Shown here piece after piece: positions 6,201 through 19,289 of a DNA stretch of 48,467 nt (positions within the stretch are counted from its first letter, which is position 1; every line of letters starts with the position of its first letter). Origin of the DNA: Halorubrum coriense DSM 10284 (GTDB lineage: Archaea > Halobacteriota > Halobacteria > Halobacteriales > Haloferacaceae). Under the pieces are notes generated by a model. That model searched no databases and was not told the origin of the DNA. It was given only the letters and a program-made list of their open reading frames with translations. The position numbers and the translations under genes are program-made. The stretch spans positions 18,714-67,180 of the forward strand of contig NZ_AOJL01000051.1 in NCBI RefSeq assembly GCF_000337035.1. The letters run 5' to 3'.

Positions 6201-6275
6201 GTGATTCAACACATGAACACGGTCGAAATGCGGTTTGAATCGGACGGGCGTTCAGTAGAGGTGGGAGAGCTGTGA
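6201..6275 (+). CDS. Putative 24-residue leader peptide of amt
   Basis: A GTG at 6201 (in frame with ATG at 6213) opens 24 codons ending at TGA 6273-6275. This stop overlaps the amt start GTG (6272-6274) in the arrangement GTGA. The GTG at 6201 lies about 29 bases after the centre of the TATA box near 6172, fitting a leaderless start; the peptide reads [12 protein letters not shown] near its N-terminus and is mixed in composition, not a signal peptide. The amt Shine-Dalgarno sequence (AGAGGTGG, 6257-6264) lies inside this frame, so amt is probably translated by coupling. Translation of the leader is not proven. Confidence 0.45.
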
Positions 6276-7954
6276 CGGGTGGCGTTCTCGCCTCGATCGA
6301 TCCGAGCGTCCTCGCCGAGGGGATTAACCTGATGTGGGTCGCGGTGGTCTGCTTCCTCATCTTCTTCATGCACGCCGGCTTCGCGATGCTGGAAGCGGGC
6401 CAGGTACGCGCGAAGAACGTGGCGAACCAGCTCACCAAGAACCTGCTGACGTGGAGCGTCGGCGTGCTGTTTTACTTCCTGATCGGCTTCGGCGTCGAGG
6501 GGCTCTCCGCCGGCGGGGGCTTCTCGGCGGCGTCCGCGCTCGGTGACGGCGGCTGGGTCAACAGCTGGCTGTTCGGTGCCGTCTTCGCGATGACGGCGGC
6601 GACGATCGTCTCCGGCGCGGTCGCCGGACGGGCGAAGCTCCGCGCGTACGTGGCGTACACGATGGCCATCTCCGCGGTCATCTACCCGGTCGTCGCGGGG
6701 ATCACCTGGGGCGGCGGCTTCCTCGGCGGCGCAGGGCTCGGGTTCACCGACTTCGCTGGCGGGATGATCGTCCACGGCATGGGCGGCATCGCGGGGCTCA
6801 CGGCCGCGTACGTGCTCGGTCCGCGGATGGACCGCTACGCCGAGGACGGCTCCTCGAACGTCATCCCCGGTCACTCGATGACGTTCGCGGTGCTCGGCAC
6901 GCTGATCCTGGCGTTCGGCTGGTACGGCTTCAACGTCGGCACGACCGCGACCGTCTTCTCGGTCACGGAGTCCGGCGAACTCGCGCTCGGCGGCTACGCC
7001 GCGGTCGGTCGCGTCTCGCTCACCACGACGCTGGGCATGGCCGCGGGCGGCGTCGGCGCGGCGCTGGCGTCGGTGGCGCTCTCGAAGAAGGTCGACACGC
7101 TGTACGTCGCGAACGGGCTGCTCGCCGGGCTGGTCGGCGTGACCGGCATCGCGAACCTCGCGACGTGGTGGGGCGCTATCGCGGTCGGGCTGGTCTGCGG
7201 CCTCCAGCTCCCGATCGTCTTCGAGTTCGTCGCCGACACGATGAAGATCGACGACGTCTGCGCGGTGTTCCCGGTCCACGGCTCGGCCGGGGTCATCGGC
7301 GTCCTCGCGCTGCCGTTCGTCAGCATCAACGGCTTCTCCGTCGACCTGCTCGTCTCGCAGGTGATCGGCGTGGTCGTCATCGCGGCGTGGACCGTGGTCG
7401 CGACGGCGCTCGTCTTCGGGGCGTTCAAGGCCGCCGGTCAGGCCCGCGTCACCCCCGAACACGAGCGCGACGGGCTCGACGTCAGCGAACACGGCGTCGA
7501 GACGTACCCCGAGTTCGGCAAGCCCTCCGTCACCACCGACGGCGGTCGCGTGGCGGGGACGGACGCGAACGAGGGCTCGCCGCGCGCCGACGGCGGCGAG
7601 GAGGACGGCGCGGAGATCAAGATGGTCACGGCGGTCGTCCGGCCCGACAAGCTCGGAGCCATCAAGCAGGCGCTCGCGGAGATCAACGCGCCCTCGCTCA
7701 CCGTGACGAACGTCTCCGGCCGCGGCAGCCAGCCCGCGAAGAAGGGCCAGTGGCGCGGCGAGGAGTTCACCGTCGACCTCCACCAGAAGGTCAAAGTCGA
7801 CGTGGTCGTCGCCGACATCCCGGCCGACGAGGTCGCGGAGGCCATCGCGGACGCGGCCGAGACCGGCGAACCCGGCGACGGCAAAGTGTTCGTCCTGCCG
7901 GTCGAGGACGCGCTTCAGGTCCGCACGGGCGCGACCGGTCCGGAGGCGGTGTAG
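6272..7954 (+). CDS. amt: Ammonium transporter fused to a P-II signalling domain
   Basis: Residues 1 to about 400 are an Amt/Rh ammonium channel with about eleven membrane segments; the family motifs [25 protein letters not shown] and the two pore histidine regions [10 protein letters not shown] and [12 protein letters not shown] are present. After an acidic linker (about 400-447), residues 449-560 form a complete P-II (GlnK) domain: [14 protein letters not shown]-loop [30 protein letters not shown]. The T-loop tyrosines uridylylated in enteric GlnB (Y46, Y51) are W and F here, so that modification is not possible. In most organisms GlnK is a separate gene next to amt; here channel and plug are one chain. 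The GTG start has a Shine-Dalgarno sequence 8 bases upstream and overlaps a leader frame. Confidence 0.95.
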
Positions 7955-9403: not shown

Positions 9404-9468
9404 GCCGGGCGACCCGCGTCGACCGGGCCGGCCGGCAAACCTTGCGCGCGCCGACCGGTGCGGAACAG

Positions 9469-9493
9469 TTTTATACCGCAGATCGGTACGTAC
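9469..9493 (+). promoter_or_regulatory. Promoter of the arginine-rich mini-gene before argG
   Basis: TTTTATA (9469-9475) is centred 27 bases before the ATG at 9499, ideal for a leaderless start. The palindrome GTACGTAC (9486-9493) lies between box and start codon and could be an operator. Confidence 0.5.
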
Positions 9494-9498
9494 GGGTG

Positions 9499-9621
9499 AT
9501 GACCGCAGCGGCTCGCCGCGACCTCGTCCGAGGCCGACGAGCCCTGCGACCGCGACGAGACGTCCGACCGCCGCGACCGGCTTCCGGCGCGGCGCGACGA
9601 CAGGCCCGTTCGGGCCAGTAA
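9499..9621 (+). CDS. Putative 40-residue arginine-rich peptide upstream of argG
   Basis: Forty codons from ATG 9499 to TAA 9619-9621; a GTG directly before (9496) is in the same frame. Thirteen of 40 residues are arginine, and ten of those use CGA, a codon that the neighbouring genes use little compared with CGC and CGG. A good TATA box sits 27 bases upstream. A hairpin GGCCC-GTTC-GGGCC (9603-9616) ends three bases before the stop. The argG start follows 137 bases later with its own TATA box. It might be an arginine leader peptide, a small basic protein, or a chance frame: off-frame reading of GC-rich DNA also gives arginine-rich peptides. No family is recognised. Confidence 0.35.
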   Translation: MTAAARRDLVRGRRALRPRRDVRPPRPASGAARRQARSGQ

Positions 9622-9723
9622 TCTTCATCCCTCGTCGCGTTCGCGCCGTTTCGTTCCGAAGAGTCTCGACTCTCGTCTCCGTGAGCCGCCGCGCCGCCAT
9701 TTTCTTACAAAACTGAAACCACT

Positions 9724-9733
9724 GAATTTAAGG
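9724..9733 (+). promoter_or_regulatory. TATA box of argG
   Basis: GAATTTAAGG is centred about 30 bases before the argG ATG at 9758, in a short AT-rich stretch (9697-9733). It fits leaderless argG mRNA. The stretch TTTTCTTA just upstream could end transcripts coming from the mini-gene. Confidence 0.55.
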
Positions 9734-9757: not shown

Positions 9758-10999
9758 ATGACGAGCGTTGCACTCGCGTTCAGCGGAGGACTCGACACCA
9801 CGGTCTGCGTACCGCTGCTGAAAGAGGAGTACGGCTACGACGAGGTCATCGGCGTGAACGTCGACGTCGGCCAGCCGACGGAGGAGTTCGACGAGGCCGA
9901 GGAGACCGCCGAGGCGCTGGGGCTCGACATCCACGTCGTCGACGCGAAAGCCGAGTTCGCGGACCTCTGTTTCGACGCGGTGAAGGCGAACGCCAGCTAC
10001 CAGGGCTACCCGCTCGGGACCGCCCTCGCGCGCCCGGTCATCGCCGAGGCGATCCTCGGCGTCGCCGAGGAGCAGGGCTGCGACGCCATCGCCCACGGCT
10101 GTACGGGCAAGGGGAACGACCAGCTCCGCTTCGAGGCCGTCTGGCGCGGCTCCGACCTCGAAGTGATCGCCCCCGTGCGCGAGCTCGGCCTCACCCGCGA
10201 GTGGGAGATCGACTACGCCGCCGAGAAGGACCTGCCCGTCGAGGCCGGCGACGGCGGCGTCTGGTCCATCGACGAGAACATCTGGTCGCGCGCGGTCGAG
10301 GGCGGGAAGCTGGAGAACCCGGACTACGAGCCGCCGGAGGACATCTACGAGTGGACCGCCGAGCCGGAGGGCGAGACCACCATCGAGGTGACCTTCGAGG
10401 CGGGCGTCCCCGTCGCCGTCGACGGCGAGGCGATGGACCCGGTCCCGCTCATCCAGCACCTCAATGAGTACGCCGGCGGCTACGGCGTCGGCCGCACCGA
10501 CGTGATGGAGGACCGCATGCTCGGGCTGAAGGTCCGCGAGAACTACGAGCATCCGGCCGCGACCGTCCTGCTGACCGCCCATCAGGCGCTCGAAGACCTC
10601 GTCCTCACGAAGAACGAGCGCTCGTTCAAGAAGGGGATCGAACAGGAGTGGTCCGAGAAGGCGTACGAGGGACTCGTGTTCGCGCCCGTCGTCGACGCGC
10701 TGAACGCCTTCGTCGACGAGACGCAGGACGTGGTGACCGGCACGGCCACGGTGAAGGTCTCCGGCGGCGACTGCCGCGTCGTCGCCCGCGACTCCGAGTA
10801 CGCGGTGTACTCGGAGGAGATGGCCTCGTTCAACACCGAGGACGTCGCCGGCATCGCGCAGTCGGACGCGACGGGCGTCGCGAAGTACCACGGGCTCCAA
10901 GAGCGCCTCGCCAACGACGTGAAAGCGAGCGTCTCGAAGCCCGAGCTCGCGACGGACGGGGCGGGCGAGACGGACGCGTCCGACGCCGACCACGAGTAG
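9758..10999 (+). CDS. argG: Argininosuccinate synthase
   Basis: Joins citrulline and aspartate using ATP to give argininosuccinate, the next-to-last step of arginine synthesis. The 413 residues begin with the PP-loop ATP site ALAFSGGLDTTV, followed by NVDVGQPTEEFDEAEE, the substrate-binding AHGCTGKGNDQLRFE, and the synthase segment TREWEIDYAAEKDLPV. The C-terminal 20 residues are acidic and Ser/Asp-rich, a halophilic tail. The stop codon is followed immediately by the argH ATG, so the two form an operon. Its promoter is at 9724. Confidence 0.97.
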   Translation: MTSVALAFSGGLDTTVCVPLLKEEYGYDEVIGVNVDVGQPTEEFDEAEETAEALGLDIHVVDAKAEFADLCFDAVKANASYQGYPLGTALARPVIAEAILGVAEEQGCDAIAHGCTGKGNDQLRFEAVWRGSDLEVIAPVRELGLTREWEIDYAAEKDLPVEAGDGGVWSIDENIWSRAVEGGKLENPDYEPPEDIYEWTAEPEGETTIEVTFEAGVPVAVDGEAMDPVPLIQHLNEYAGGYGVGRTDVMEDRMLGLKVRENYEHPAATVLLTAHQALEDLVLTKNERSFKKGIEQEWSEKAYEGLVFAPVVDALNAFVDETQDVVTGTATVKVSGGDCRVVARDSEYAVYSEEMASFNTEDVAGIAQSDATGVAKYHGLQERLANDVKASVSKPELATDGAGETDASDADHE

Positions 11000-12541
11000 A
11001 TGGCCGACGACGATCCCGACGCGGCGGCGGACGCCGACTCCGGCGAGGCTGACGACGGCGCGACGAGCCGCGACGCCGGCGGAGGCGACACCGCCATCCG
11101 CCGCGACCGCTTCACCGGCGGCCCCGCCCGCGAGTTCCTGTCGAGCCTCGCCGCGGACGCCGCCATCTTCGAGGCGGACCTCGCGGTCGACCGCGCGCAC
11201 ACGGTGATGCTCGCGGAGCAGGGGATCGTCGATAGCGAGGTCGCGGGCGATATCCTCGCCGCGCTCGACGGGGTGGAGGACGCGGGTCACGGCGCGCTCC
11301 CGGACGGCGAGGACGTCCACGAGGCGATCGAGACCGCGGTCATCGACCGGGTCGGCCCGGACGGCGGCCGGATGCACACCGCCCGCTCGCGCAACGACGA
11401 GGTGGCGACCTGTATCCGGTATCGCCTGCGCGGGGACCTGCTGGACGCCGCCGAGGCGACCGTCGCCGCCCGCGAGGTCCTCGTCGACGTCGCGGGCGAG
11501 CACGCGGAGACGGTGATGCCGGGGTACACCCACCTCCAGCCCGCCCAGCCGACGACGGTCGCGCACTACCTGCTGTCGTACGAGGGCGGCCTCGCCCGCG
11601 ACGCGGAGCGGCTCCTCGGCGCGTACGACCGCGTCAACCGGTCGCCGCTCGGCGCGGCCGCGTTCGCGGGGACGCCGTTCGACGTCGACCGCGACCGGAC
11701 CGCCGAGCTGCTCGGGTTCGACGGGACGGTCCGCAACTCGATGGACGCCGCCTCGGCGCGCGACTTCCTCGCGGAGTCGGCGAGCGCGCTCGCGACCCTC
11801 GCGACGACGCTGTCGGGGCTCGCGGAGGACCTGATCGTATTCTCGAACAAAGGAGTCGTCGAGCTGGCGGACGCGTACGCCTCCACCTCCTCGATCATGC
11901 CCCAGAAGAAGAACCCCGACACGCTGGAGCTGACCCGCGGCGTCGCGGGCGACGCGATCGGCGAGGCGACCGGCACGCTGAGCCTCCTCAAGGGGCTGCC
12001 GCGGGCGTACAACCGCGACCTCCAGCGCGCCCACGCGAGCGTGTTCGAGATCGCGGGCGACGTGCGGGAGGCGACCGAGGTCGCCGCGGGTGCGGTCGCG
12101 ACCACCGAGTGGGACGAGGACGCGCTCGCGGCCGCCGCGGGCGAGGGGTTCTCGACGGCCACCGGGGTCGCCGACCTGCTCGCGATGGCGGGGCTCCCGT
12201 TCCGGACGGCCCACGAGATCGTCGCGAGCGCCGCGCCCGCGGTCGAGGACGGCGACGACCCCGCGACCGCCGCCGCAAAAGTTGACGAGGCCGCACGCGC
12301 CGTGCTCGGCGAGTCCCTCTTCGAACGCGTGTCGCGCGACGAGGTGGAACGCGTCCTCGATCCGGCCGCGAGCGTCGCGAGCCGCGACTCCGCGGGCGGC
12401 CCCGCGCCGGCGGCGGTCGCGGAGGATCTGACGGCGGCGACGGCCGGGATCGACGCGGACGCGACGGCGCTCGACGAGCGCCGCGGGGCCCTGACGGCGG
12501 CGGCCGAGGCGCTCGACGCGGAGGTGGCGACGTATGAGTGA
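11000..12541 (+). CDS. argH: Argininosuccinate lyase
   Basis: Splits argininosuccinate into arginine and fumarate, the last step of the pathway. It belongs to the fumarase/aspartase superfamily; the signature SSIMPQKKNPDTLE is present near residue 300, and DVHEAIE and HTARSRNDEVATC mark the substrate site. The N-terminal 35 residues are an acidic, low-complexity extension before the conserved RRDRFTGGPAREFLSSLAAD, making the protein (513 residues) longer than the usual 450-500. The start follows the argG stop with no gap. The stop overlaps a downstream small frame (ATGAGTGA). Confidence 0.96.
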   Translation: MADDDPDAAADADSGEADDGATSRDAGGGDTAIRRDRFTGGPAREFLSSLAADAAIFEADLAVDRAHTVMLAEQGIVDSEVAGDILAALDGVEDAGHGALPDGEDVHEAIETAVIDRVGPDGGRMHTARSRNDEVATCIRYRLRGDLLDAAEATVAAREVLVDVAGEHAETVMPGYTHLQPAQPTTVAHYLLSYEGGLARDAERLLGAYDRVNRSPLGAAAFAGTPFDVDRDRTAELLGFDGTVRNSMDAASARDFLAESASALATLATTLSGLAEDLIVFSNKGVVELADAYASTSSIMPQKKNPDTLELTRGVAGDAIGEATGTLSLLKGLPRAYNRDLQRAHASVFEIAGDVREATEVAAGAVATTEWDEDALAAAAGEGFSTATGVADLLAMAGLPFRTAHEIVASAAPAVEDGDDPATAAAKVDEAARAVLGESLFERVSRDEVERVLDPAASVASRDSAGGPAPAAVAEDLTAATAGIDADATALDERRGALTAAAEALDAEVATYE

Positions 12542-12786: not shown

Positions 12787-12834
12787 GGTAAGTTCGGAAC
12801 CTTTATGTGTTCGGGCCGCCCAGCATGGAGTACG

Positions 12835-13023
12835 ATGACGAGCGACACCGACACGCTGACCGCGGAGGACCCGATCACGGGCGAGGAGATCGAGATCCCG
12901 GCCGACGTCGAGGTCGGCGAGATCATCGACAGTCCGGTCACGGGGACCGAACTGGAGGTCATCTCGCTCGACCCGGTCGTCTTGGACGAAGCGCCCGAGC
13001 TCGAGGAGGACTGGGGCGAGTAG
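12835..13023 (+). CDS. lysW: LysW-type amino-group carrier protein without zinc cysteines
   Basis: Carrier protein whose C-terminal glutamate takes the amino acid during LysW-dependent arginine (or lysine) synthesis, protecting its amino group. The 62 residues end in the diagnostic EDWGE. The core (residues 11-50) matches the LysW zinc-ribbon fold, with repeats DPITGEEIEI and SPVTGTELEV. In Thermus LysW these begin CPEC and CEDC; here the four cysteine positions are D12, T15, S33 and T36, so zinc cannot be bound in the usual way. TATA box CCTTTATG (12800-12807) is about 30 bases before the ATG. Next gene is argX, so glutamate for arginine is the likely load. Confidence 0.92.
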   Translation: MTSDTDTLTAEDPITGEEIEIPADVEVGEIIDSPVTGTELEVISLDPVVLDEAPELEEDWGE

Positions 13024-13102: not shown

Positions 13103-14017
13103 GTGCGCGTAGGGGTCCTCTACTCGCGGATCCGGAAGGACGAGAAGCTCCTGCTCGGCGAGCTCCGCGAGCGCGGCCACGACGTCGAGAAGATCGACGT
13201 GCGCAAGGAGCGGTTCGGCCTGGACTCGACGACCGCCGCCGTCGACGACCTTGACGTCGTCGTCGACCGCTGCCTGTCGACGAGCCGGTCGCTGTACGCG
13301 ACGCGGTTCCTCGACAGCTACGGCGTTCCCGTCGTGAACGGCCCGGAGACCGGCGACGTCTGCGCCGACAAGGCGAAGAACTCGCTCGCGCTCGCCGAGG
13401 CGGACGTGCCGACCCCGGCGACGGAGGTCGCGTTCACGAAGGAGGCCGCTTTGGAGGCTATCGAGTCGTTCGGCTACCCGTGCGTGCTCAAGCCCGTCGT
13501 CGGCTCGTGGGGGCGGCTGATGGCGAAGATCGACTCGCGGAACGCCGCCGAAGCGATCTTGGAACACAAGGAGACGCTCGGCCACTACGAGCACAAGGTG
13601 TTCTACGTGCAGGAGTTCGTCGACAAGCCCGGCCGCGACGTCCGCGTGCTGGCGGTCGACGGCGACCCGGTCGCGGCGATGACGCGCTCCTCGGAGCACT
13701 GGCTCACGAACGCCGCGAAGGGCGGCGAGACGGAGCCGTTCGACCTCGACGAGCGGGCGACCGAACTCGTCGAACGCGCCTCCGAGGCGGTCGGCGGCGG
13801 CATGCTCGGCGTCGACCTGATGGAGGTGGGAGTCGAGGCGGACACCGCCGAGACCGGCGGCTCCGGCGAGTACACCGTCCACGAGGTGAACCACACGGTC
13901 GAGTTCAAGGCGCTCGACGCGGCCACCGACGTCGACGTCCCCGCGCGGGTCGTCGACTGGCTGGAGGCGAAGGCGGTCGAACTGGCCGACGGAGCCGTCG
14001 TGGGGGCCGACGCGTGA
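13103..14017 (+). CDS. argX: Glutamate-LysW ligase (ArgX/LysX family)
   Basis: ATP-grasp ligase that joins the amino group of glutamate (ArgX) or alpha-aminoadipate (LysX) to the terminal glutamate of LysW. The 304 residues start MRVGVLYSRIRKDEKLL, with the ATP-grasp segments YPCVLKPVVGSWGRLMAKI, YVQEFVDKPGRDVRVLAVDG and the metal-binding end YTVHEVNHTVEFK. Context with argG, argH and argF points to glutamate and arginine, though a dual role in lysine is possible. GTG start with GGAGGGG (13089-13095) seven bases upstream. The 79-base gap after lysW contains two 15- to 16-codon frames and a near-copy of the start region. Confidence 0.93.
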   Translation: MRVGVLYSRIRKDEKLLLGELRERGHDVEKIDVRKERFGLDSTTAAVDDLDVVVDRCLSTSRSLYATRFLDSYGVPVVNGPETGDVCADKAKNSLALAEADVPTPATEVAFTKEAALEAIESFGYPCVLKPVVGSWGRLMAKIDSRNAAEAILEHKETLGHYEHKVFYVQEFVDKPGRDVRVLAVDGDPVAAMTRSSEHWLTNAAKGGETEPFDLDERATELVERASEAVGGGMLGVDLMEVGVEADTAETGGSGEYTVHEVNHTVEFKALDAATDVDVPARVVDWLEAKAVELADGAVVGADA

Positions 14018-15084
14018 CCGCCGAGGCCGACGCGGCGACCGCGGACGCCTACACCGCGAGCGTCGTCGGCGGCACCGGGTTCACCGGCGGCGAGCTGCTG
14101 CGGCTCCTCGCCGGCCACCCGAACTTCGAGGTCGTCCAGGCGACCTCGCGGTCGGCCGACAACATGACCGTCGGGCGCTCGCACCCGAACCTGCGCGGGC
14201 TCGACCTGCGCTTCTCGGACCCCGAGGACCTCGAATCGGTCGACGTGCTGTTCGCGGCGACGCCGCACGGGGTCTCGATGGGGCGCATCGACGAGTTCGC
14301 CGAGGCCGCCGACACGGTCGTCGACCTCTCGGCGGACTTCCGGCTCCCCGAGGCCGCGGCGTACGACGAGTGGTACGACGGCCACGAGTCGCCGGAGTAC
14401 CTGGAGCGCGCGGAGTACGCGCTCCCCGAACTCAACCGCGAGAACCTCCCCGGCGCCGACCTGATCGCGGGCGGCGGCTGTAACGCGACCGCGACGATCC
14501 TCGGGCTGAAACCCCTCGTGGACGCCGGCGCGCTCGGTCCCGAGACCGGCGAGGTCGTCGTCGACGTGAAGGTCGGCTCCTCGGAGGGCGGGGCGGGCGG
14601 CGGCGCGGCCTCCTCGCACCCGGAGCGCTCTGGCGTCGTGCGCCCGTACGCGCCGACCGGTCACCGCCACGAGGCGGAGATCGAGGCGTACCTCGGGCTC
14701 TCCGTCTCCTTCACCGTCCACGCGGTCGACATGGTCCGCGGCGCGAGCGCGACCTGTCACGTCTTCCCCGACGAGCCGATATCGAAGGGGGACCTGTGGG
14801 GCGCGTACCGCGACGCCTACGCCGACGAGCCGTTTCAGCGGATCGTCTCGGGCGGGGGCGGCGTCTACCGCTACCCCGAGCCGAAGGCGGTCGCGGGGAC
14901 GAACCACGGCGAGGTCGGCTTCGAGCTCGACCCCGGCAACCGCCGGGTCGTCGTCTTCTCGGCCATCGACAACATGATGAAAGGCTCCGCCGGGCAGGCG
15001 GTCCACGCGGCGAACGTCGCCCTCGGACTGCCCGAGACGGCGGGTCTCGAGTTCGACGGGCTCCACCCGGTGGGTGCGCCATGA
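14014..15084 (+). CDS. argC: LysW-gamma-glutamyl-phosphate reductase
   Basis: NADPH-dependent reductase that turns the LysW-bound gamma-glutamyl phosphate into the semialdehyde (equivalent to ArgC N-acetylglutamyl-phosphate reductase). The 356 residues show the nucleotide-binding SVVGGTGFTGGELLRLL, the catalytic-cysteine segment GGGCNATATILGLKPL, and KVGSSEGGAGGGAASSHPER. GTG start overlaps the argX stop (GTGA), and the stop overlaps argB (ATGA), so the genes are translationally coupled. Confidence 0.95.
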   Translation: MTAEADAATADAYTASVVGGTGFTGGELLRLLAGHPNFEVVQATSRSADNMTVGRSHPNLRGLDLRFSDPEDLESVDVLFAATPHGVSMGRIDEFAEAADTVVDLSADFRLPEAAAYDEWYDGHESPEYLERAEYALPELNRENLPGADLIAGGGCNATATILGLKPLVDAGALGPETGEVVVDVKVGSSEGGAGGGAASSHPERSGVVRPYAPTGHRHEAEIEAYLGLSVSFTVHAVDMVRGASATCHVFPDEPISKGDLWGAYRDAYADEPFQRIVSGGGGVYRYPEPKAVAGTNHGEVGFELDPGNRRVVVFSAIDNMMKGSAGQAVHAANVALGLPETAGLEFDGLHPVGAP

Positions 15085-16028
15085 CGGGGAACGATTCCGA
15101 GTCGGGGACCGAGCCGCCGGTGGTCGTCAAGGTCGGCGGCGCGAAGGCGGTCGACCCGGCCGGCGCGGTCGGCGACGTCGCGCACCTCGCGGCCAACGGG
15201 CGCGCCGTCGTCGTCGTCCACGGCGGCTCGACGGTCGTCGACGAGACGCTCGGACGGCTCGGCATCGAGCCAGAGTACGTCGAGTCCGCCTCGGGCGTCA
15301 CCGGGCGGTTCACCGACGCGGAGACGATGGAGGCGTTCTCGATGGCGATGGCCGGCAAGCTCAACACCGAACTGACGGCCCGGTTCCGCTCGGCCGGGGT
15401 GGACGCGGTCGGCCTCTCCGGGGTCGACGGCGGCCTCCTCGCCGGGCCGCGCAAGTCGGCGGTCCGCGTCGTTGAGGACGGGAAACGGAAGATCCGGCGC
15501 GGCGACCACTCCGGGCGGATCGAGTCGGTGAACGCCGACCTCCTCGCCGGGCTCCTCGCCGACGGCTACACGCCGGTCGTCTCGCCGCCGATGGCGGGCG
15601 ACGAGGGCGACGGCGAGGTGACGGCGGTCAACGCCGACGCCGACCGCGCGGCCGCGGCGGTCGCGGGCGCGCTCGACGCCGACCTCGTCCTGCTGACCGA
15701 CGTCTCGGGCGTGTACGCCGACCCGGACGACCCCGAGACGCGGATCGACGCGGCCGCGACGCCAGACGAGCTGGCGGCCGTCGAGGACGCCGCCGAGGGG
15801 TTCATGGGGAAGAAGGTGATGGCCGCGAGAGAGGCGTTGTCGGGCGGATCCGACCGCGCCGTGATCGCGGACGCCAACGTCCGCGACCCGGTCGTCGCCG
15901 CGCTCGGCGGCGAGGGAACGACGATCGAACGGTCGGCGCTCGGGGGCGACGGAGCGGCGGACGGCGGCGCTAAAGAGGCGGACGGCGACGGTGCGGACGC
16001 CGAGGCCGAAGGAGGTGAGACCGTGTGA
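15081..16028 (+). CDS. argB: LysW-glutamate kinase
   Basis: Amino-acid kinase that phosphorylates the gamma-carboxyl of LysW-bound glutamate (LysZ/ArgB). The 315 residues begin with a short acidic stretch, then VVVKVGGAKAVDP and VVVVHGGSTVVDETL (ATP and substrate glycine loops), GLSGVDGGLL, and NADADRAAAAVAGAL; LLTDVSGVYADPDDP is typical of the family. The last about 35 residues are an Asp/Glu/Gly/Ala tail without kinase features, a halophilic extension. Overlaps argC by four bases and argD by four bases. Confidence 0.94.
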   Translation: MTGNDSESGTEPPVVVKVGGAKAVDPAGAVGDVAHLAANGRAVVVVHGGSTVVDETLGRLGIEPEYVESASGVTGRFTDAETMEAFSMAMAGKLNTELTARFRSAGVDAVGLSGVDGGLLAGPRKSAVRVVEDGKRKIRRGDHSGRIESVNADLLAGLLADGYTPVVSPPMAGDEGDGEVTAVNADADRAAAAVAGALDADLVLLTDVSGVYADPDDPETRIDAAATPDELAAVEDAAEGFMGKKVMAAREALSGGSDRAVIADANVRDPVVAALGGEGTTIERSALGGDGAADGGAKEADGDGADAEAEGGETV

Positions 16029-17152
16029 GCGGCTTCGTCTTCTCCGAGAAGCCGATCGAGATCGCCTCGGGCGACGGGGTGTACCTCACGGACACGAACG
16101 GCACGGAGTACCTCGACTTCGGGGCCAGCTACGCCTGTACGCCGGTCGGCCACTGTCACCCGGAGGTCGTCGACGCGGCGACGAGCCAGCTGGAGGAGCT
16201 CATGTACGTCCAGGCGTCGTACCCGCACGCGGCGCGGACGGCGCTGTACGAGCGGTTGGCCGACACCGCGCCGGTCGACGTCGACAACGTCTGGCTCTGT
16301 AACTCCGGGACCGAGGCGAACGAGGCCGCGCTGAAGTTCGCCCGGCACGCGACCGGTCGCGAGAAGATCGTCGCGACCACGCAGGGGTTCCACGGTCGGA
16401 CGATGGGGACGCTCGCGACGACGTGGAAGGACAAGTATAAGCAGGGGTTCGGCCCGCTCGCGGGCGGCGTGGAGTTCGTCGAGTACGGCGACGCCGAGGC
16501 GATGCGCGAGGCCGTCGACGAGGACACCGCCGCGGTGATCTTAGAGCCCCTCCAGGGCGAGGGCGGGATCAACCCCGTCTCGACCGAGTACCTCCAGGCG
16601 GTCCGCGTCGCGACCGCCACGTCCGGCGCGGCGATGATCTTAGACGAGATCCAGACCGGGCTCGGTCGCACCGGAGAGCTGTGGGCCGCCGACCGCCATC
16701 ACGTGGTCCCGGACGTCCTCACGACCGCGAAGGGGCTCGGCAGCGGGCTCCCGATCGGCGCGACGCTGTGTCGCGACTGGATCGCCGAGGACGGCGGCGA
16801 CCACGGCTCGACGTTCTCCGGCGGGCCCGTGGTGTCGGCCGCGGCGGGGGCCACGCTCGACGTGATCGAGCGCGAGGACCTGCCCGCGCACGCCGAGGAG
16901 ATCGGGAGCTACCTCCGCGGCGAGCTCCGCGACCGCCTCGGCGACGACGTGCGCGACGTGCGCGGCGACGGGCTGATGGTCGGGATCGAGGTGCGCCGCG
17001 GGTCGAACCGGCTGCTGCGCGACCTCGCCATCGACCACCGGATCCTCGCGCTGCCGGCGGGGCGGACCGTGCTGCGCCTGCTGCCGCCGCTGACGATCGA
17101 ACGCGAGCACGCCGACGCCGTCGTCGACGCGATAGCCGAGGTGGTCGGCTGA
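16025..17152 (+). CDS. argD: LysW-gamma-semialdehyde aminotransferase
   Basis: Class III PLP aminotransferase that converts the LysW-bound glutamate semialdehyde to LysW-bound ornithine. The 375 residues carry DFGASYACTPVGHCHPEV, WLCNSGTEANEAALKFAR, the cofactor aspartate in MILDEIQTGLGRTG, and the PLP lysine in VLTTAKGLGSGLPIGA. GTG start has a full Shine-Dalgarno sequence GGAGGTGA (16011-16018) six bases upstream and overlaps the argB stop. This is the best ribosome site in the operon, so ArgD may be made at a high level. Its stop shares one base with the argE start (TGATG). Confidence 0.95.
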   Translation: MSGFVFSEKPIEIASGDGVYLTDTNGTEYLDFGASYACTPVGHCHPEVVDAATSQLEELMYVQASYPHAARTALYERLADTAPVDVDNVWLCNSGTEANEAALKFARHATGREKIVATTQGFHGRTMGTLATTWKDKYKQGFGPLAGGVEFVEYGDAEAMREAVDEDTAAVILEPLQGEGGINPVSTEYLQAVRVATATSGAAMILDEIQTGLGRTGELWAADRHHVVPDVLTTAKGLGSGLPIGATLCRDWIAEDGGDHGSTFSGGPVVSAAAGATLDVIEREDLPAHAEEIGSYLRGELRDRLGDDVRDVRGDGLMVGIEVRRGSNRLLRDLAIDHRILALPAGRTVLRLLPPLTIEREHADAVVDAIAEVVG

Positions 17153-18330
17153 TGGCGACCGGACAGGAGCGGGATCGGGAGGGAGTCGAGGCGTCCGACG
17201 CCGCGGCCGGCGGCACCGACGTCGTCGCCGGGGGCGGCTACCCCGCGGCCTGCGACACGCCCGCCCGGAAGCTGCTGTACGACATGGTCTCGATCCCCTC
17301 GCCGTCGCGCGACGAGGAGCGGGCGGCCGAGCGCCTCGTCGACTTCTTTGAGGCGAACGGCCGAGAGGCGTGGATCGACGAAGTCGGGAACGTCCGCGCC
17401 CCGGCGAACGACGCCGTCCTGCTCACCTCGCACGTCGACACCGTCCCCGGCGACATCCCGGTCGAGGTGCGGCCCGCGCCGCCCGAGGGCGAGCTGCCGG
17501 AGCCATCGGACGCCCGCGTCGGCGAGCCCGGTGACCCCGTGCTGTGGGGCCGCGGGGCGGTCGACGCGACCGGGCCGCTCGTCTCGATGGCGGTCGCGGC
17601 GGTGAAGACCGGCGTCTCCTTCGCGGGCGTCGTCCGCGAGGAGGTCGACTCCGGCGGCGCGCGCCACCTCATCGGCGACCGCGACGCGCCCGACGCGGTG
17701 GTCAACGGCGAGCCGTCGGGCTGGCAGGGGATCACCCTCGGCTACCGCGGCCTGCTGGAGGGGACGTACGTGAACACCAGCGAGTCGGGGCACTCCTCGC
17801 GGCCGGAGCCGAACGCGATCCAGCACGCGATCGACTGGTGGCACGGCGTCGAGGCGGCGTTCACGCCGGACGACGCGGAGACCGCCGTCTTCGACCAGGT
17901 GACGACCAAGCCCATCTCGGTCGACGGCGGCCTGAGCGACGACGGCCTCGCCGTGGAGACGACGATGGACGTCCAGCTGCGGATCCCGCCGTCGCGACCG
18001 GTCGACGAGATCCACGAGCTCGCGGAGGCGGAGCTGTCGACGGGCACGGTCCACTGGGGCGAGCCGATGCCGCCCGTGATGGAGAGTCCGCGGACCGACC
18101 TCGCGCGGGCGTTCCGCGTCGCGATCCGGAGCGCGGGCGGCGACGTGCGCCTGCTCCGGAAGACCGGCACGAGCGACATGAACCTCTTCGCGGCCGCGTG
18201 GGACTGCCCGATGGTCACCTACGGGCCGGGGAACTCCGACCTCGACCACGCCCCCGACGAGCGGCTCCCGCTCCCGGACCTCGACCGCGCGGTGCGCGTG
18301 CTGACCGACGTCTGCCGCGAGCGACTCTGA
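17152..18330 (+). CDS. argE: LysW-ornithine hydrolase (LysK/ArgE)
   Basis: Zinc peptidase of the M20 family that releases ornithine from LysW. The 392 residues have an extra acidic N-terminus of about 30 residues, then DMVSIPSPSRDEERAAERLV, the metal-binding histidine and aspartate in LTSHVDTVPGD, WGRGAVDATGPLVSM, and the catalytic glutamate pair in VREEVDSGGA. The C-terminal segment RKTGTSDMNLFA matches LysK. The start shares one base with the argD stop. Last gene of the coupled block; argF follows 59 bases later with its own TATA box. Confidence 0.93.
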   Translation: MATGQERDREGVEASDAAAGGTDVVAGGGYPAACDTPARKLLYDMVSIPSPSRDEERAAERLVDFFEANGREAWIDEVGNVRAPANDAVLLTSHVDTVPGDIPVEVRPAPPEGELPEPSDARVGEPGDPVLWGRGAVDATGPLVSMAVAAVKTGVSFAGVVREEVDSGGARHLIGDRDAPDAVVNGEPSGWQGITLGYRGLLEGTYVNTSESGHSSRPEPNAIQHAIDWWHGVEAAFTPDDAETAVFDQVTTKPISVDGGLSDDGLAVETTMDVQLRIPPSRPVDEIHELAEAELSTGTVHWGEPMPPVMESPRTDLARAFRVAIRSAGGDVRLLRKTGTSDMNLFAAAWDCPMVTYGPGNSDLDHAPDERLPLPDLDRAVRVLTDVCRERL

Positions 18331-18389
18331 CCCGCCGCACTCCCCCGAGACCGACCGTTTTCGAACGACACCACACCACCACTCTCACG

Positions 18390-19289
18390 ATGCCACTCGC
18401 CACCAACGACTTCCTCGACATCGACGACGTGACGCCCGCCGAACTGGACGCCTTACTCGACCGCGCCGCCGTCATGAAGGCGGGCGAGGCGGAGCCCCGA
18501 CTCGGGGACGCGACGCTCGGGATGATCTTCGAGAAGCCCTCGACGCGCACCCGGGTCTCCTTCGAGACGGGGATGACGCGGCTGGGCGGCCACGCGATGT
18601 TCCTCGGCCCCGACGACATCCAACTGGGGCACGGCGAGCCGCTGAAGGACACGGCGCGGGTCCTCGGCCGGTACGTCGACGGCGTGATGGCCCGGCTCTT
18701 CGACCACGCGGACGTGGAGGTCCTCGCCGAGTACGCCGACTGCCCCGTGATCAACGGGCTCACCGACGAGGCGCACCCCTGCCAGACGCTCGCCGACCTC
18801 CTCACGATTCGGGAGACGGTCGGCGAGGAGGCCACGGTCGCGTGGGTCGGCGACGGCAACAACGTCGGGCAGTCGTTCGTCGTCGGCGCGGCGATGGCCG
18901 GCGTCGACGTCGAGGTCGCCACGCCCGCCGACTACGGGATGGACCCCGACGTGTTCGATCGCGCCGCCGAGTTCGGCGCGGACGTGGCACCGACGACGGA
19001 CCCGGAGACCGCCGTCGACGGCGCCGACGTCGTCTACACCGACGTGTGGATCTCGATGGGGCAGGAGGACGAGCGCGACGAGAAGCTCGCCGCCTTCGAC
19101 GGGTTCCAGGTGAACGCCGACCTGCTCGCCGGCACCGACGCGAAGGTGATGCACTGCCTGCCTGCGCACCGCGGCGAGGAGGTCACGGACGACGTGCTCG
19201 AGTCCGACCGGGCCTTGGTCTGGGACCAGGCGGAGAACCGGATGCACGCGCAGAACGCGCTGCTCGTCGAACTGCTCGGCGGGGAGTGA
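18390..19289 (+). CDS. argF: Ornithine carbamoyltransferase
   Basis: Transfers carbamoyl from carbamoyl phosphate to ornithine, giving citrulline. The 299 residues carry the carbamoyl-phosphate site EKPSTRTRVSFE, the mid-domain HADVEVLAEYADCPVINGLTDEAHPCQTLADLLT, and the ornithine site MHCLPAHRGEEV. Starting at ATG 18390, CGTTTTCGAA lies about 29 bases upstream, suggesting a separate leaderless transcript although all genes face the same way. Length is normal. A stem-loop follows at 19320. Confidence 0.97.
   Translation: MPLATNDFLDIDDVTPAELDALLDRAAVMKAGEAEPRLGDATLGMIFEKPSTRTRVSFETGMTRLGGHAMFLGPDDIQLGHGEPLKDTARVLGRYVDGVMARLFDHADVEVLAEYADCPVINGLTDEAHPCQTLADLLTIRETVGEEATVAWVGDGNNVGQSFVVGAAMAGVDVEVATPADYGMDPDVFDRAAEFGADVAPTTDPETAVDGADVVYTDVWISMGQEDERDEKLAAFDGFQVNADLLAGTDAKVMHCLPAHRGEEVTDDVLESDRALVWDQAENRMHAQNALLVELLGGE

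Follow-up and report, generated by a model that had tools for sequence, protein, structure and literature searches.

A conserved arginine-codon mini-gene upstream of argG in Halobacteria, a candidate leader-peptide attenuator

The short arginine-rich open reading frame (ORF) that precedes the arginine operon of Halorubrum coriense is probably a cis-acting leader peptide gene that gauges charged tRNA-Arg and controls the operon by ribosome-mediated attenuation, a reading of comparative sequence data to which a probability of roughly 0.7 can be given. The element combines a promoter, a short ORF, in-frame codons that match the pathway and are biased towards rare forms, a hairpin at the stop codon and a G-poor tract, and this combination is conserved across the class Halobacteria. 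An earlier note on this DNA had described a TATA box, an ATG, 40 codons with 13 arginines (10 of them CGA) and a hairpin before argG, all of which are found in the sequence as claimed, and had likened them to an attenuation leader. That likeness is now supported by the conservation of the frame, the arginine codons, the hairpin and the TATA spacing over the class, and points to attenuation as the likely mechanism.

Anatomy of the leader locus

The window, that is, the whole stretch of 48,467 nucleotides that was analysed, contains the following parts of the leader locus:

9469..9476, + strand: TATA box TTTTATAC, 30 nt upstream of the leader ATG, in the distal promoter P1 (from the sequence; same spacing in relatives)
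9499..9621, + strand: leaderless leader-peptide ORF of 40 codons, ATG at 9499 (conserved in relatives)
9504..9548, + strand: hairpin H1 within the 5' half of the leader ORF, arms 9504-9517 and 9536-9548 (compensatory changes, swap test)
9585..9600, + strand: 5' arm of the outer stem, which includes sensor arginine codons (fold, swap test)
9595..9609, + strand: proposed sensor arginine codons closest to the stop, namely CGA CGA at 9595-9600 and CGT at 9607-9609 (class-wide arginine peak)
9603..9616, + strand: inner hairpin GGCCC-GTTC-GGGCC (compensating arms in nearly all relatives)
9617..9631, + strand: G-poor C/T/A tract immediately 3' of the inner hairpin (class-wide G-free run)
9632..9648, + strand: 3' arm of the outer stem, beyond the leader stop (fold, swap test)

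The conceptual translation of the ORF at 9499-9621 is MTAAARRDLVRGRRALRPRRDVRPPRPASGAARRQARSGQ, with the 13 arginines specified by 10 CGA, 2 CGC and 1 CGT codons. The stop codon (9619-9621) lies immediately 3' of the inner hairpin (9603-9616), which is itself nested in the larger stem 9585-9600/9632-9648, with a predicted folding energy of -38.3 kcal/mol.

The arginine operon and its two promoters

Downstream of the leader lie the genes of the arginine pathway and a second, proximal promoter:

9727..9732, + strand: TATA-like box TTTAAG, 31 nt upstream of the argG ATG, in the proximal promoter P2 (sequence, lineage distribution)
9758..10999, + strand: argG, encoding argininosuccinate synthase, at the head of the arginine operon (Pfam PF00764, PF20979)
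11000..12541, + strand: argH, argininosuccinate lyase (Pfam PF00206, PF14698)
12805..13023, + strand: lysW/argW carrier protein (Pfam PF21344)
13103..19289, + strand: argX-argC-argB-argD-argE-argF, the rest of the arginine pathway (ORF translations and the gene set of PMC10433800)

The names of the last six genes are putative and come from reading their translations against that gene set. Given this order of genes, the leader element heads the arginine pathway. Elsewhere in the window, positions 6272-7954 encode an ammonium transporter with a P-II signalling domain fused to its C-terminus (Pfam PF00909, PF00543).

The earlier note had cautioned, correctly, that argG has a TATA box of its own. 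A second TATA box, 31-36 nt before argG, is present in Halorubrum, Haloferacaceae and Natrialbaceae lineages, about half of the lineages, and in these an argG mRNA started at P2 would be leaderless and would escape the leader peptide. Thus, in the window's lineage the leader can control just part of argG expression. Many other lineages, including Haloarcula, have no P2, and there P1 is the sole visible argG promoter; in such lineages argG mostly lies 58-130 nt downstream of the leader, behind a CA-rich 5' region lacking a Shine-Dalgarno sequence.

A conserved element resembling CTATAGRCATCTCT is found ~60-90 nt before the argG start, upstream of the proximal promoter, in Haloferacaceae-type genomes and Haloquadratum (L079, L080, L084, L113 and L151), and is a possible operator.

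Conservation across the class Halobacteria

The same promoter-ORF-hairpin anatomy precedes argG throughout the class (131 regions), low-GC Haloquadratum included. The TATA-spacing rule alone led to a short ORF with an arginine-rich end in 91 of 92 distinct argG upstream regions, the exception being L099, which was found by hand. In 40 further regions, sampled by family, the leader was found directly in 38 and by hand in one, and in L150 only its end was recovered, with the arginine codons and hairpin kept and no start identified. The leader starts of L099 and L119 were assigned by hand rather than by the TATA rule, and in L081 and L153 the leader begins with GTG and its TATA box is poor. The element is also present in two additional lineages. 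Nothing comparable precedes argG in 18 upstream regions from other Halobacteriota, outside Halobacteria; one of these has a small ORF that ends in a hairpin but lacks the arginine run.

The peptide itself drifts in sequence, its length varies from 21 to 50 codons, and the number and spacing of the arginines vary as well. Within Halorubrum, every indel inside the ORF is a multiple of 3, whereas those after the stop are not. The amino acids show no purifying selection (pN/pS 1.27), and synonymous sites are constrained. In-frame indels combined with a lack of selection on the amino acids fit a leader rather than a small protein. The persistence of the frame and of its arginine codons had been set in advance as the point on which the idea could fail, and when it was checked both proved to be conserved across the class, so that the idea survived.

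Arginine codons in the leader frame

In 69 dissimilar representatives, the last 12 codons hold 0.391 arginines per codon in frame, versus 0.176 and 0.072 in the other two frames, and the ATG frame is strictly the most arginine-rich in 54 of the 69. Arginine frequency reaches its peak, 0.3-0.7, between four and ten codons ahead of the stop; farther upstream it is ~0.1. The codons are also unusual, as CGA accounts for 250 of 487 leader arginine codons (51%) versus 17 of 650 in argG (2.6%). In six genes of the window CGA is used for 0 of 128 arginine codons, and the CGA run in the leader is therefore not a matter of local codon usage.

These frame counts answer the further caveat of the earlier note, that GC-rich DNA read off frame also yields arginine. 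The same caveat is countered by the CGA bias, by the Ile/Val-ending leader at ilvB described below, and by low-GC Haloquadratum, whose leader, MDWHWLGVFTPMEGVSIVSMSYNVIGQIRQRRRAI, ends in RQRRRAI before the stop; since the arginine run is present there, it is not a GC effect.

RNA structure around the stop codon

Of 64 representatives, 53 have the stop codon within the hairpin, and class-wide the stop is in or beside this structure. The arms of the inner hairpin occur in compensating versions, namely GGGCC/GGCCC, GGGGTC/GACCCC, GGGGC/GCCCC, GGCCC/GGGCC and GGGCTC/GAGCCC. Because the loops differ in length, a class-wide MAFFT alignment of the terminal hairpin lost register and its pair counts were weak; swap tests were used instead, in which pairing partners are exchanged between genomes and a weakening of the pairing gives a negative z. 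For the inner hairpin z was -7.3, yet the reversed control was also low (-5.3), so the best support for this hairpin is its compensating arms. H1, which shows compensatory changes within Halorubrum, gave z -9.8 across the class (-6.2 when the arms were kept from overlapping). For the outer stem two swap tests gave z -5.1 and -3.9, whereas unrelated segment pairs gave -1.4 to -1.7.

Immediately after the hairpin, the mean longest G-free run is 17.8 nt class-wide, versus 7.1 nt in control windows. No T-run follows the hairpin across the class, the longest run of T being mostly 2-3. Candidate antiterminator pairings (1:3, 1:4 and 2:4) gave swap z of -1.7, -1.4 and -1.7, the last against -1.2 for its reversed control, and none was seen to stand above control.

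Specificity of the anatomy

A strict scan, blind to arginine, required a TATA box 29-34 nt before an ATG, an ORF of 15-60 codons, and a stop in or no more than 5 nt from a 5-bp all-GC hairpin. On both strands of the window the argG leader is the only match, and among the 131 argG upstream regions the scan matches 107. In 1.37 Mb strand-bases of haloarchaeal DNA it returned eight matches: the argG leader of the window, three ilvB leaders and four that are unexplained; the argG site is thus more than a chance arrangement. In addition, a scan of 1.2 Mb from a single Halorubrum genome that ignored gene positions reduced 1178 combinations of TATA box, start and ORF to four loci that have both a stop hairpin and a G-poor tail; two of them are the argG and ilvB leaders.

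A sister element at ilvB

Of 28 ilvB loci sampled, 25 have an ORF of 19-38 codons upstream of the gene (two have none, and one is only partly covered). These ORFs end in IIVGV, IRIVGAL, AIVGV, LVLVGAL and similar sequences, and their stop lies within a GTAGGGG...CCCC hairpin (GGGCC/GGCCC in one case), followed by a G-poor tail. For instance, a leader that begins MRRHTT and ends APIIVGV lies between leuA and ilvB in the window's own genome (upstream at C36:17402, L239) and at L376:19141. Rare codons are again preferred, with ATT making up 27 of 42 leader isoleucine codons versus 27 of 546 in ilvB, and GTA 36 of 93 leader valine codons versus 4 of 1257, although about 25 of those 36 are circular, GTA having served as the search anchor for the table. 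The leaders themselves had been found earlier without that anchor. The hairpin varies too little for the swap test to be informative.

Since the ilvB leader ends in isoleucine and valine with rare codons, the sensor codons match the pathway in both cases, and an amino acid before the hairpin that tracks the pathway is not predicted by a structured RNA or by base composition. Leaders of this layout were sought at hisG, carA, trpB, trpDFEG, hom and pheA and were not found. Upstream of leuA and its paralog (for example L312-L326) there are other recurrent small ORFs, ending in GREILRRR or RVLPGHTGFH, nearly all of them without a stop hairpin.

Attenuation as the probable mechanism, and the alternatives

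Under the attenuation model, RNA polymerase would initiate at P1 and the ribosome would load straight onto the 5'-terminal AUG. When arginine is plentiful, the ribosome would pass the rare arginine codons and depart at the stop. The inner hairpin would then fold, as would the outer stem, with its 5' arm built from those same codons, and transcription would end in the G-poor tract just 3' of the structure. When arginine is scarce, the ribosome would instead stall on the arginine codons and cover the 5' arms, the structure would be blocked, and polymerase would read through into argGH-lysW-argXCBDEF. The same scheme, with isoleucine and valine codons, would apply at ilvB. The anatomy fits such a stalled ribosome; on this reading the leader ORF would be translated, stalling would act as the signal and, less certainly, termination of transcription would be the output.

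Termination would presumably be intrinsic or by aCPSF1/FttA, rather than the control being translational. Archaeal termination involves U-stretches and aCPSF1/FttA (reviewed in PMC8116511), and the G-free, unstructured tract could serve either route. A hairpin gave 59% termination in a Haloferax volcanii reporter (PMC7237163). The lineages in which P1 is the only visible argG promoter also favour attenuation. Against it stand the tract after the hairpin, which is not a T-run, while the strong terminators of Haloferax are T-stretches (PMC7237163), the lack of an antiterminator pairing above control, the escape of argG mRNA from the leader that P2 would allow in Halorubrum, Haloferacaceae and Natrialbaceae lineages, and the fact that most pathways tested are without such leaders. 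Because the U-run is absent and no antiterminator was found, the element is not classed as a classical intrinsic-terminator attenuator. A broader proposal, for which the odds seem even, is that haloarchaea possess a class of amino-acid-specific attenuators with leaderless ORFs and the stop in a hairpin, comprising at least the arginine (argG) and isoleucine/valine (ilvB) leaders, with transcription ending in a G-free tract, perhaps by Rho-like action of aCPSF1/FttA.

The missing T-run would also suit a mechanism in which the leader ribosome decides the cleavage or translation of the mRNA stretch linking leader and argG, with no premature termination, as would the position of argG in lineages without P2, mostly 58-130 nt downstream and behind a CA-rich region free of Shine-Dalgarno sequences. 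However, termination-reinitiation would have to span a long gap, and the sensor codons are directly followed by the hairpin and tract, as in an attenuator; control of translation or RNA stability appears unlikely, though a serious alternative. Quite improbable is an arrest peptide of the fungal type, in which the nascent chain and free arginine stall the ribosome at the stop. An arginine-rich C-terminus adjoining the stop of a pathway-specific peptide is what such a mechanism would call for, but neither the sequence nor the length (21-50 codons; pN/pS 1.27) is conserved, the arginines vary in number and spacing, and the ilvB leader has the same layout with a different amino acid.

The covariation of H1 and the outer stem and the constraint on synonymous sites would equally be expected of a non-coding structured 5' RNA or an operator, the arginine codons being a mere by-product of conserved CGA/TCG pairing. 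This is very improbable, given that the ATG frame is the arginine-rich frame (54/69), indels stay in frame, the hairpin holds the stop, ilvB has isoleucine and valine at the same place, and no Rfam family matches. Finally, a functional arginine-rich small protein that lies beside the operon by chance would have its own promoter, start and stop, as this ORF does, but is hardly credible for a peptide with no purifying selection on its amino acids, no Pfam or NCBIfam match, a location upstream of argG that is conserved, and a counterpart at ilvB.

Implications and comparison with known systems

In bacteria, attenuation by leader peptides is textbook knowledge and requires RNA polymerase and ribosome to be closely coupled. 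Should the proposed class of haloarchaeal attenuators prove real, it would be the first such case in archaea, and direct evidence of transcription-translation coupling in archaeal regulation. A class-wide pair of pathway-matched leaders in genetically tractable haloarchaea would make coupling-based regulation directly testable, and would offer a test of how archaeal transcription terminates conditionally; because the element was not seen in 18 upstream regions of other Halobacteriota, an independent origin of the attenuation logic would be testable as well.

The argG leader matches no known riboswitch, T-box or other leader in Rfam, and its peptide no small-protein family in Pfam or NCBIfam. 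No report of leader-peptide attenuation in archaea was found in the open-access papers that were searched. The fungal arginine attenuator peptide, encoded by the upstream ORF of arg-2/CPA1, is a conserved peptide that senses free arginine. It shares with the haloarchaeal leader the arginine pathway and an upstream ORF; unlike the fungal case, haloarchaea conserve only the arginine codons and the structure of the RNA. The terminators mapped in Haloferax volcanii (PMC7237163) likewise include hairpins that can terminate, with partial read-through, but they were mapped without a link to leader ORFs, and the tract of the haloarchaeal leader is G-free rather than T-rich.

With the bacterial attenuators of trp, his, leu, thr and ilv, the haloarchaeal leader shares a promoter, a short ORF with codons for the end product near its end, rare codons, a hairpin beside those codons and an operon of the same pathway downstream. 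It differs in being archaeal, in its leaderless start, in a stop that is mostly inside the hairpin, and in having no U-run and no antiterminator that could be found. Closest in form are the candidate ilvB leaders of Actinobacteria (PMC1262725), where no such element was found upstream of arginine operons and where the hairpins, unlike those of haloarchaea, are followed by poly-U; there too, short ORFs upstream of ilvB carry isoleucine, valine and leucine codons that overlap a candidate terminator hairpin.
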